Of a stretch of 35,323 nucleotides of DNA, positions 11,036 to 35,277 are shown piece after piece. Positions within the stretch are counted from its first letter, which is position 1; the number at the start of each line of letters is the position of its first letter. This DNA is from Corallococcus carmarthensis. Its GTDB lineage: Bacteria > Myxococcota > Myxococcia > Myxococcales > Myxococcaceae. The DNA is taken from assembly GCF_003611695.1 (NCBI RefSeq), contig NZ_RAWE01000088.1:1-35323 (forward strand), written 5' to 3'. Both the position numbers and the translations under genes were made by a program. A model generated the notes under the pieces. That model ran no database searches. It had not been told where the DNA came from and worked only from the letters and a program-made list of their open reading frames with translations.

Positions 11036-12553
11036 TCAGACCGCCCGGCGGGGACGGAGTGACTGCAACGCACTCCACGGGCGAACGCCTTGCGCATACA
11101 GGCCCACCACGTACCCCACCACGAAGAGCAGCCCCGCCACCGCCAGGGGCAGCACCCGCCACAGGAAGCCCGTGGGCAGGTTCATCCACGTGTCATGCAC
11201 CCCGGAGCGCAAGAGGAAGATGCTCCCGCCCGCCGCGAACGCCGCCAGCGACGCCTGACCCAGCTCCCGCCACGGAATGACGTCCTTGAGGCCCAGCTTC
11301 CGCTCGGGCGTGGACAGCGCCTGGGGCACGCGGATGAGCAGCATCCCCTTGCCCACCACCTCCGCCAGCGCCCAGGACGCGATGCCGCCCATCATCCCGA
11401 AGTGCTTCACGCCCAACCACAGGAGCGGCACCGTCACCACGGCCTTCACCAGGTACGAGTTGAAGATGGCCCGCGTCTGCCCCCGGGCCCGCAGCGTCCC
11501 GTCCATGGGAAGGATGGCCAGCACCACGCCCAGCACGCTCACCCGGAAGATGGGGACCGCGGGCAGGAACTTCTGGCCGAACATGGCCCCCACGAACTCC
11601 GGCGCCGCCGCGAAGAGGAACGCCGCGAAGGGCAGGAACACGTACGCCAGCTTCCCGGCCGCTTCCCGGAAGGCCTCCACGCCCTCCTCCAGCCGGCCCT
11701 CGCGCTCCAGCTCGCCCAGGCGCACCATCAGCACCTCGCTGGTGGGCGTGTAGAGCAGGTCCACCACCGGCAGCTGGAAGCAGCCCACCCGGTAGAGCGC
11801 GTACACCGCGGGGGCCACCACGCCCGCCACCGCGTACATGTGCGCGTTCTGCTGGGGGATGGCCAGGCACATCGCCGCGCCGAACGGCGCCGCGTACACC
11901 AGCTGCTCCTTGAACAGCTTCCAGTCCACCAGCGGACCCGTGGACCCGCGCAGCGACACCACCCACGTGGCCACGTAGCGAAGGCCCGCGAAGCAGGCCA
12001 CGGCGATCATCATCCCGTGCAGGGAGAAGCCCAGCAGCGGCGGCAGCACCATCACGCCCGAGCGCACCGCGTCGGACGCCAGGTACACCACCGCGGACGC
12101 CTTCGTCTTCCCCTGGCTGGTGAGCGAAATCTCCAGCGGGTAGCTGCCCAGGAAGAACGCCGTGTAGAGCGCCAGCGCCGCGCGGTGATCCATCAGCGCC
12201 GGGTTGTTGAAGTACGCCGCCACGTGGCCCAGGAAGGCCCACACCAGCCCCGCGGCGACAATGCCCGCGCCCGTGACGAAGAGCAGCGCGTGCCCCAGGT
12301 AGGGCCGCTTCGCCTCCGCGCGGGGCAGGAAGTAGTAGAGGCTCTGCGCCACGCCGAACGGCAGCACGTACGACAGCGTCGTGGCGATGAGGAACAGTTG
12401 GTAATAGGTGCCGTACTCGTCCAGGCGAAGCACCCGGGCAAGGACGAGCGGAATGGACAGCGTCAGCCCGGCGGTGAACAACCGGGCCAACACCAACGGG
12501 CCGGCCCGCCCCAGGAACGACGGGGATGGGGCCGGCTTGGGTGACACACTCAC
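11036..12553 (-). CDS. exoM: Wzx-type flippase ExoM homolog, spore coat polysaccharide
   Basis: A 505-residue polytopic membrane protein of the polysaccharide transporter (MOP/Wzx) superfamily, with about 12-14 hydrophobic segments. Family features: an early LARLFTAGLTLSIPLVLARVLR with RLDEYGTYYQLFLI (the typical helix 1 to helix 2 pattern of Wzx proteins), LLGFSLHGMMIAVACFAG, and late segments YVFLPFAAFLFAAAPEFVGAMFG and FGMMGGIASWALAEVVGKG. Its M. xanthus counterpart MXAN_3260/ExoM was shown genetically to act as the flippase moving lipid-linked coat repeat units across the inner membrane. The start is GTG at 12553, whose GTGA overlaps the exoL stop, with GGAGGAG five bases upstream. A second GTG two codons later is possible. 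It is followed by a hairpin and then exoN. Confidence 0.9.
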   Translation of the reverse strand: MSVSPKPAPSPSFLGRAGPLVLARLFTAGLTLSIPLVLARVLRLDEYGTYYQLFLIATTLSYVLPFGVAQSLYYFLPRAEAKRPYLGHALLFVTGAGIVAAGLVWAFLGHVAAYFNNPALMDHRAALALYTAFFLGSYPLEISLTSQGKTKASAVVYLASDAVRSGVMVLPPLLGFSLHGMMIAVACFAGLRYVATWVVSLRGSTGPLVDWKLFKEQLVYAAPFGAAMCLAIPQQNAHMYAVAGVVAPAVYALYRVGCFQLPVVDLLYTPTSEVLMVRLGELEREGRLEEGVEAFREAAGKLAYVFLPFAAFLFAAAPEFVGAMFGQKFLPAVPIFRVSVLGVVLAILPMDGTLRARGQTRAIFNSYLVKAVVTVPLLWLGVKHFGMMGGIASWALAEVVGKGMLLIRVPQALSTPERKLGLKDVIPWRELGQASLAAFAAGGSIFLLRSGVHDTWMNLPTGFLWRVLPLAVAGLLFVVGYVVGLYAQGVRPWSALQSLRPRRAV

Positions 12554-13866
12554 TGGAGCTCCTCCGGCTGCGCCGCCTCCGAGGCAAGGGCCACGTTCGA
12601 CGCCACCACGACCTGCGCACCTGGCGCCGCCACCGCAACCCGCGGCTCCGTCGCGATCACCGGCGCTGTCACGTCCACGACTTCCACCGGCGTGGCCTTC
12701 GCGAGCGCCGCGTCCAGCTCCTCGACGAGCACGTTGCCGGTGTTCATCGGGGACAGGATGTGCGGCCGGTGCCCCAGCACCGGGTGGCTCATGCCCAGCA
12801 CGCCGAAGCAGTCGTCGAACTGGCACACCGTCAGCGCCGACGAGTAGTCCCCCATCAGGCCCAGGCTGAAGTTCTCCCACATCACCTTGCGCTTGAGGGC
12901 GAACGGGTCGCCGCCCACGCGGTTGGGCAGGTCCTCCGTGGTGACGCCGGAGCGGAAGCCGTTCTGGTTGAGCACGCGGATCATCTCATCCGAGTACCAG
13001 CCGTTGCAGTACGCGAAGTCCTTCACCTGGATGCCGACCTCGCGCTCGATGGTCTGCTTGGACTCCACGATCTCCTTCTCCACCACCTCCGTGGGCTCCA
13101 GCGTCAGCACCGTGTGGCCCAGCGTGTGCGCGCCGAACTCGAAGCCGTCGCGCGCCATGGTGCGCACCTCGTCCCAGTTCATGACGTCGCCCTGCTCCGG
13201 CACGAGGTCCGCGCCGCCGCCCAGCTGCTGCTCCAGCGAGTCGATGATGCCCGTGAGCACGCGCGTCGGGTGCTCGCCAATGAAGTCGTCCAGCGCCGCG
13301 GACACCGTCTTGCTCCCGGTGAGGATGGGCCCCAAGAGCTGCACCGACGGGCCAGGCATGGTGTCGTAGTCAGGGCGGAACCGGCGCTCCTGCACGCAGC
13401 GCAGCAGGTGGAACAGCCGGTCGTGGTTGAAGCGCTTGTCCGTGTTGATGAACGCCGTGGGCAGGTAGGTGATGGCCGGCACGCCCATCTGCTTGAGCAC
13501 CGGGTACGCGTACCGGTACACGTCGCGGTAGCCGTCGTCGAACGTCACCACGAACAGGTCCTTCTTCGCGGCGCGGCGGCCCGCCATCACGTCCACCGCG
13601 TCGCCAATGCTCGCCAGCTCGAAGCCCGCCGCGTGCGCCTGCTCCAGGTGGCGGCGGAACGTCTCCTGGGAGATGAGCAGCCCGGGAATGGAGCGCTGCA
13701 GCTCCCCCGTGAAGTCGCTCACCACGCGGTGGTAGCTCACGATGAGGATGCGCCGCCCCCCCGACTGCGAACGGCGGTACGCCGCCATCGCCTTGCGCGC
13801 CCCGCTGTAGTGGAGGAACCCTGCCGCCGCCGCCTTCGCCGCCCGCCGCAACACCCTGCCAGCCAT
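12550..13866 (-). CDS. exoL: Polysaccharide deacetylase ExoL homolog (NodB/CE4)
   Basis: A 438-residue carbohydrate esterase family 4 protein. Seen: VSYHRV (44-48), motif 1 TFDDG (108-112) with the catalytic base and metal Asp, motif 2 AHTLGH (246-251) with both metal histidines, and motif 3 FAYCNG (284-289). A roughly 85-residue insert separates motifs 1 and 2. The last ~50 residues are an Ala/Val/Glu-rich low-complexity tail outside the domain. No signal peptide is visible (the N-terminus is basic, MAGRVLRRAAKAAAAG), so action on the cytoplasmic side or loose membrane association is possible. It corresponds to M. xanthus MXAN_3259/ExoL, needed for an intact spore coat. The ATG at 13866 follows GAGGGAGGCGTG. 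It is the first gene of the exoL-P unit, behind a sigma-54-like promoter at 13935-13950. Confidence 0.88.
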   Translation of the reverse strand: MAGRVLRRAAKAAAAGFLHYSGARKAMAAYRRSQSGGRRILIVSYHRVVSDFTGELQRSIPGLLISQETFRRHLEQAHAAGFELASIGDAVDVMAGRRAAKKDLFVVTFDDGYRDVYRYAYPVLKQMGVPAITYLPTAFINTDKRFNHDRLFHLLRCVQERRFRPDYDTMPGPSVQLLGPILTGSKTVSAALDDFIGEHPTRVLTGIIDSLEQQLGGGADLVPEQGDVMNWDEVRTMARDGFEFGAHTLGHTVLTLEPTEVVEKEIVESKQTIEREVGIQVKDFAYCNGWYSDEMIRVLNQNGFRSGVTTEDLPNRVGGDPFALKRKVMWENFSLGLMGDYSSALTVCQFDDCFGVLGMSHPVLGHRPHILSPMNTGNVLVEELDAALAKATPVEVVDVTAPVIATEPRVAVAAPGAQVVVASNVALASEAAQPEELQ

Positions 13867-13934: not shown

Positions 13935-13950
13935 TGCATGCTGGATGCCA
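13935..13950 (-). promoter_or_regulatory. Sigma-54-type (-24/-12) promoter for exoLMNOP
   Basis: Read on the minus strand, 13950 to 13935 is TGGCATCCAGCATGCA, against the sigma-54 consensus TGGCACG-N4-TTGCW. The invariant GG and GC are present with exactly ten bases between them. Transcription would start near 13924, about 58 bases before the exoL ATG. Confidence 0.55.
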
Positions 13951-34366: not shown

Positions 34367-34936
34367 TCACGGGACGACGACGGTGTCACCCGGCCGCAGG
34401 ATGACCAGCTCGCCGCTGGGGGAGACCAGGTCGCTGTAGCGCACCGGGATCTGCCCGCCGTTGCCGTCCGTGCGGATGACGACGATGCCGTCGGAGTTGG
34501 CGAAGTCCGTGAAGCCGCCCGCCAGCGCGATGGCCTGCAAGAGCGACACGCGGCCGCGCAGCGGGTAGGCGCCCGGGTGGGCCACTTCGCCCGTCACGAA
34601 GACGCGGCTGCTGTTGACCTCGCGGACGATGACCGTCACGCGCGGCTCCTGCACATACGGCGTGAGGCCCGACTTGAGCGCTTCCGCCAGCTCCGTGGGC
34701 GTCTTGCCCGCGGCTTGAATCTCACCCACCATGGGGATGGAGATGAAGCCGTCGGGACGCACCGGCACCGTGCGCGACAGCTCCTGATCGCGCCAGACAC
34801 TGACGTCGAGCACGTCCTCACGGCCGATGCGGTAGGGCTGCTCCGCGTTGTCGACCTTCAGCGTCTGCTGGTGAGCACAACCCGACAGGAGGAGCATCCC
34901 CATCACCGTCCAGAACCCCGTGCGCCGCATTCCCAT
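34367..34936 (-). CDS. exoA: Short OPX lipoprotein ExoA/FdgA homolog, polysaccharide export
   Basis: A 189-residue outer-membrane polysaccharide export (OPX, Wza-type) lipoprotein. The signal peptide ends in lipobox LSGC (Cys20). The polysaccharide-export domain spans about 35-105 (YRIGREDVLDVSVWRDQEL, GFISIPMVGEIQAAGKT), then a single SLBB domain (about 110-165, RVFVTGEVAHPGAYPLRG) and RPGDTVVVP at the end. It is far shorter than E. coli Wza and has no C-terminal amphipathic helix for crossing the outer membrane, so a barrel partner (ExoB) is needed. The start is ATG at 34936, with AAGGAG eight bases upstream. M. xanthus fdgA/exoA is a known developmental gene regulated by FruA. A sigma-54-like promoter lies at 35028-35043. 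Confidence 0.93.
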   Translation of the reverse strand: MGMRRTGFWTVMGMLLLSGCAHQQTLKVDNAEQPYRIGREDVLDVSVWRDQELSRTVPVRPDGFISIPMVGEIQAAGKTPTELAEALKSGLTPYVQEPRVTVIVREVNSSRVFVTGEVAHPGAYPLRGRVSLLQAIALAGGFTDFANSDGIVVIRTDGNGGQIPVRYSDLVSPSGELVILRPGDTVVVP

Positions 34937-35027
34937 CTTCCGCTCTCCTTCGTTTTGCTGATGTCCGCGCGGGCCACCGTTCGTACGCCCCGCAGGGCCA
35001 GGCGACTCGCTTCTGGCGGTGGCTCTT

Positions 35028-35043
35028 AGCAGCGCGTGTGCCA
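35028..35043 (-). promoter_or_regulatory. Sigma-54-type (-24/-12) promoter for the exoA-I operon
   Basis: Read on the minus strand, 35043 to 35028 is TGGCACACGCGCTGCT against TGGCACG-N4-TTGCW. GG and GC are exactly ten bases apart, and only the last -24 base and first -12 base differ. The start would be near 35017, giving a leader of about 80 bases before the exoA ATG. Confidence 0.6.
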
Positions 35044-35171
35044 GCGACCTCGGGGAGGGAAAACCCTTGGAATGCAGTGGGTTACGGCGTGCCACATCAG
35101 GCGCACCTGGGCGCATCCGGGAAAAATTCCGGTCCTACCCCGGTGTTCTCCCCTGTGCTTTCTGCCGATCG

Positions 35172-35188
35172 CTTCCACGGGGTGGAAG
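35172..35188. repeat. Perfect palindrome upstream of exoA, possible operator
   Basis: CTTCCAC-GGG-GTGGAAG, with 7-base arms and a 3-base centre. A further CTTCCAC half-site follows near 35215-35221. It lies about 160 bases upstream of the predicted transcription start, a usual distance for an enhancer-type activator site. Confidence 0.5.
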
Positions 35189-35248: not shown

Positions 35249-35277
35249 CGTGCCAACGGGCTGGCACGCGCCTTGAA
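35249..35277 (+). promoter_or_regulatory. Inverted repeat with a rightward sigma-54-like element
   Basis: CGTGCCA (35249-35255) and TGGCACG (35262-35268) form a perfect 7-base inverted repeat. On the plus strand, 35262-35277 reads TGGCACGCGCCTTGAA: a perfect -24 box with -12 TTGA instead of TTGC. It could be a divergent promoter toward a gene beyond the window, or just an operator. Confidence 0.35.

Follow-up and report, generated by a model that had tools for sequence, protein, structure and literature searches.

The 16-mer TGGCACACGCGCTGCT upstream of exoA is very probably the -24/-12 sigma-54 promoter of the exoA-I operon, which an enhancer-binding protein would open during development, and a separate promoter of this class very probably serves the exoL-P operon. 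The window, i.e., the whole stretch of 35,323 nt that was analyzed, is one whole contig (G000:C517) of the 10.8-Mb genome of Corallococcus carmarthensis. The first gene of exoA-I, exoA (34370..34936, minus strand), encodes a short OPX lipoprotein with Pfam Poly_export and SLBB matches and heads a polysaccharide-gene operon that reaches about 24.6 kb on the minus strand. The ExoA of the window is 93-97% identical to the ExoA of named Corallococcus records. A second exo set spans 13866 to about 8.0 kb, also on the minus strand, and was assigned as exoL to exoP, names that we take to be those of the Myxococcus xanthus nomenclature. Its first gene, exoL (12553..13866), encodes a polysaccharide deacetylase according to its domain match.

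The exoA element was confirmed where the first-pass annotation had placed it: TGGCACACGCGCTGCT occupies 35043-35028 on the minus strand, which corresponds to bases 92-107 upstream of the exoA ATG (A at 34936), and its end is 91 nt short of this start codon. The GG (35042-35041) and the GC (35030-35029) are ten bases apart (12 from GG start to GC start), which is the sigma-54 spacing in TGGCAC-N5-TTGC. Compared with TGGCACG-N4-TTGCW, the element matched 10/12 scored positions; position 7 has A instead of G and position 12 has C instead of T. With the spacing that is usual for sigma-54 promoters, transcription is predicted to start at 35017, 12 nt past the -12 C, which gives an 81-nt leader. The 21-base context of the element had a single occurrence in the genome. 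Taken alone, the letters of the element are unremarkable, and the motif is common and proves little. The window contained three further GG/GC sites with a score of 10, every one of them inside an ORF, and the genome showed no enrichment of TGGCAC-N6-TGCW, with 58 sites vs 132 for the backwards control. Motif counting was dropped as evidence, and since the element did not stand out from chance by its letters, relatives were compared.

The family sample comprised 96 genomes. ExoA was matched at 8.7e-59 or better in 70 of them (the window's included); the remaining 26 had weaker OPX matches only and were left out of the exoA count. TGGCAC-N6-TGCT was found ahead of exoA in all 70 genomes with an orthologue, and the more specific TGGCAC[AG]-N4-[CG]TGCT likewise covered 70/70, as 15 distinct 16-mers. 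The T of the element was located 28 to 111 nt ahead of the aligned start, and at least 81 nt ahead of it in 65/70. For three orthologues the distance was just 28 or 40 nt, which leaves too little room for an ordinary leader unless the actual start is downstream of the aligned one. The ten fixed bases were 100% identical to those of the window in the six most divergent genomes (L119-L124), where the 6-base spacer was 61% identical and the four flanking stretches averaged 28-32%. By this sequence comparison the exoA element is conserved far beyond chance, because it was kept in 70/70 orthologues vs 3/14,000 dinucleotide shuffles of the 200-bp exoA upstream regions, and because TGGCAY-N6-TGCW had 0 matches on both strands of 64,567 bp of DNA further upstream; this conservation is decisive. 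The upstream regions of 20 OPX paralogues were used as a control; one locus (L238), for which tblastn gave no placement, was left out. The motif was absent within 500 bp upstream in all 19 placed loci. In the window, an upstream extension of the exoA ORF is possible, yet a coding role for the element was ruled out, since its distance to the ATG is spread over all three phases (33, 19 and 18) and an in-frame stop lies in between in 17/70.

Beyond the family, an ExoA-like protein was matched at 1e-45 or better in 29 genomes from other families of the order, and 20 of these were examined. Fifteen had the strict TGGCAY-N6-TGCW, three a near form and two none. The matches were ~50% identical over the protein, and these ExoA-like genes are likely orthologues.

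The exoL-P operon is preceded by a sigma-54-type element as well, TGGCATCCAGCATGCA (13935..13950, minus strand), the T of which is 84 nt upstream of the exoL ATG at 13866. An ExoL match was present in 69 genomes; 60 were taken together with the window (61 loci), and 8 were left out (contig edges or distant members). All 61 orthologues had TGGCA[CT]-N6-TGCA, as 31 distinct 16-mers, at 53 to 109 nt ahead of the aligned start, and the motif occurred in 9/12,200 shuffled exoL upstream regions. The flanks of the exoL element were unlike those of exoA, and also unlike between genera. At both operons, the element ahead of the orthologues was thus kept while spacer and flanks varied, and the proposal that the same promoter class stands at the heads of both exo operons held for 70/70 exoA and 61/61 exoL orthologues. 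Many genomes also contained a GAAAG-GTTTTCC-like block upstream of exoL (L155-L192), at variable distance.

The genome encodes both RpoN and enhancer-binding proteins. A single RpoN gene (PF04552) was found, together with 62 matches to the AAA+ domain PF00158, none of which was on the window's contig. Weak PF00158 matches were also obtained in all 14 control genomes, and only the 55 matches above 100 bits were counted. As a separate observation, TGGCACGNNNNTTGAW had only three sites in the genome, one of which (G000:C526:1439-1454) is about 1.1 kb ahead of a sigma-54 DNA-binding domain match, near a possible rpoN start. In the proposed mechanism, sigma-54 RNA polymerase would bind the exoA element as a closed complex and wait there. 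An enhancer-binding protein driven by ATP, which would sit upstream and be active in development, would then open the complex, and transcription of exoA-I would begin near the predicted start. The exoL-P operon would be read from its own promoter.

Upstream of the exoA element, several blocks were conserved. The promoter-proximal blocks CGTAACCCAC...ATTCCAAGGGTTTTCC (35058..35086, minus strand) keep an almost constant distance to the -24 element: CGTAACC was found at offset -43/-42 from the -24 T in 59/70 upstream regions, and a TCC..[AG]G..TTT block in 53/70, always at -28. Further upstream is a palindrome-like block, GGAATTTTTCC (35120..35130, minus strand; roughly -113 to -103 relative to the predicted start), which is a candidate activator site. 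As a loose pattern, this GGAA-N4-6-TTCC-like palindrome was present in 50/70, its offset relative to the -24 T ranging from -86 to -89. The blocks faded in the most divergent genomes. Together, these blocks (about -113 to -40) may be bound by the activator and by co-regulators such as FruA.

The first-pass annotation had further suggested that both operons are under joint control by sigma-54 and one or more enhancer-binding proteins. The sigma-54 part is supported by the promoter type at both operons (70/70 and 61/61), the one RpoN and at least 55 strong AAA+ matches. A common particular enhancer-binding protein did not emerge from the comparison: the proximal block pair had a single genomic occurrence when up to 3 mismatches were allowed, and the exoA blocks were not found as conserved columns at exoL. 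A shared sigma factor by itself does not imply a shared activator, and it is possible, though less likely than not, that both operons depend on sigma-54 with different activators and separate timing. The uniqueness of the exoA blocks and their lack of conservation at exoL would fit such a separation; on the other hand, both operons supply components of a single spore-coat pathway, and in M. xanthus Nla6 is said to bind at both exo operons. Control of exoA and exoL by one activator is plausible.

Nla6 is the best lead for this activator, on the strength of work that reportedly identified exo as a target of this enhancer-binding protein in M. xanthus. The Nla6 consensus is a direct repeat, C(C/A)ACGNNGNC. 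It was matched on 21/140 strands at exoA vs 12.5 in shuffles and on 7/122 strands at exoL vs 11.35, and the exoA upstream region of the window contained no exact site. For FruA, the consensus GGGYRN4-6YGGG is given in the accessible portion of PMC4320627. At exoA this consensus occurred on 24/140 strands vs 16.3 in shuffles and at exoL on 28/122 strands vs 16.75, in both cases counted over rows that are related and not independent, and it did not single out the conserved exoA upstream blocks. Clear enrichment over the shuffles was seen for neither the Nla6 nor the FruA consensus. FruA could be a binder of the conserved exoA upstream blocks.

FruA does not belong to the enhancer-binding proteins, and PMC4320627 names it as the factor that up-regulates the M. 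xanthus exo operon, with binding upstream of the operon promoter. This raises a further alternative, in which a different DNA-binding regulator recognizes TGGCACACGCGCTGCT, the likeness to a -24/-12 element being fortuitous, and exoA is transcribed from a promoter of the sigma-A type or an ECF promoter. The binding of a regulator that is not an enhancer-binding protein and the conserved blocks close upstream of the element speak for it, and the up-regulation by FruA would also fit another form of RNA polymerase. We consider this alternative improbable, as the fixed and free positions of the element follow the sigma-54 pattern and recur at exoL with unrelated flanks. In addition, a scan confined to sigma-70-like sites found none in the window region and none at a common position in the relatives, any such site being present in 4/70. 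That the element is a chance match, one of many in GC-rich genomes as the equal-scoring sites in the window and the 58 exact genome matches vs 132 in the backwards control would allow, is refuted by its conservation at a similar place in 70/70 exoA orthologues vs 3/14,000 shuffles and 0/19 paralogues, and has next to no probability left.

The sigma-54 promoter of exoA-I has close counterparts in M. xanthus. The available part of PMC9765219 lists sigma-54 sites for actB (TGGCACA-N4-TTGCT), nla28 (TGGAGCG-N4-CTGCT) and mrpB (TGGCCCA-N4-CTGCT). The exoA element shares the -24/-12 geometry with the promoters of actB, nla28, mrpB and nla6, and its CTGCT at -12 is also found in nla28 and mrpB. Unlike these four, which are promoters of regulator genes, the exoA element fronts a structural operon, and its support here comes only from genome comparison. 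The fdgA/exo promoter of M. xanthus (MXAN_3225-3233) is the orthologous promoter; a contig of M. xanthus AM003 carried the identical 16-mer 93 nt ahead of exoA. According to the portions of the literature at hand, M. xanthus exo is up in sporulation, requires dev, responds to glycerol, is raised in an mrpC deletion and belongs to a late expression group, which shows timing and not the sigma factor. No statement on a sigma-54 type of the exo promoter was found in the accessible portions of PMC4320627, PMC2875238, PMC7643160, PMC6791715, PMC9601211, PMC9765219, PMC7910581 and PMC12288465. The exoA promoter adds a well-supported case to a known kind and fits prior ideas on how spore-coat genes are switched on. 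The less expected parts are the fixed-register blocks and a second, divergent element.

This divergent -24/-12-like element, TGGCACGCGCCTTGAA (35262..35277, plus strand), has GA replacing GC and points to a gene beyond the contig end. N-GGCAC-N5-TTG was found at the matching place in 59/67 informative exoA loci, after three loci that were too short had been left out, and in 62/19,800 base-shuffled sequences. At -12 the 59 elements had TTGAA (35), TTGAT (11), TTGGA (9) or TTGTA (4); TTGC was not found, and with GC at -12 in 0/59 the element falls outside the strict sigma-54 definition. A small gene divergent from exoA was present in 62/64 genomes with at least 600 bp of upstream sequence; it was seen in the relatives only. 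Gene and element occurred together in 55 of these 64, the element only in 1, neither in 1 and the gene without the strict element in 7, and by eye five of the latter 7 showed a GGCAT form. The small protein had no Pfam match and reads, from its sequence, as a putative membrane protein. In Corallococcus relatives (L056-L062), the stretch between the two divergent elements contains, further upstream, a TTCCACCCCGTGGAA inverted repeat (about 35165-35182 of the window); this repeat was not retained in Myxococcus.

One-base changes of GG or GC occur in characterized M. xanthus sigma-54 promoters, as stated in the part of PMC7910581 that was available, and that of PMC9765219 gives GTGTT as the -12 sequence of nla6. 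Because such variants are known, the divergent element is possibly a promoter. We tentatively suggest that the exoA upstream region may be a two-way sigma-54 island. In it, the exoA promoter and a divergent promoter that always deviates at -12 (TTGA/TTGG/TTGT) and drives the uncharacterized small membrane protein would both be served by the blocks between them, and a regulator from outside the enhancer-binding protein class, held in fixed register around -69 to -40, would tune the sigma-54 complex.

Since the exoA element is family-wide and is also found in the order's other families, sigma-54 control of the exoA export gene appears to be old. The exoA and exoL elements supply the exact bases for mutation, and the overlooked divergent gene may belong to the same programme. 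For the family, the finding ties two spore-coat operons to one sigma factor throughout, with exoA so tied in other families of the order as well.
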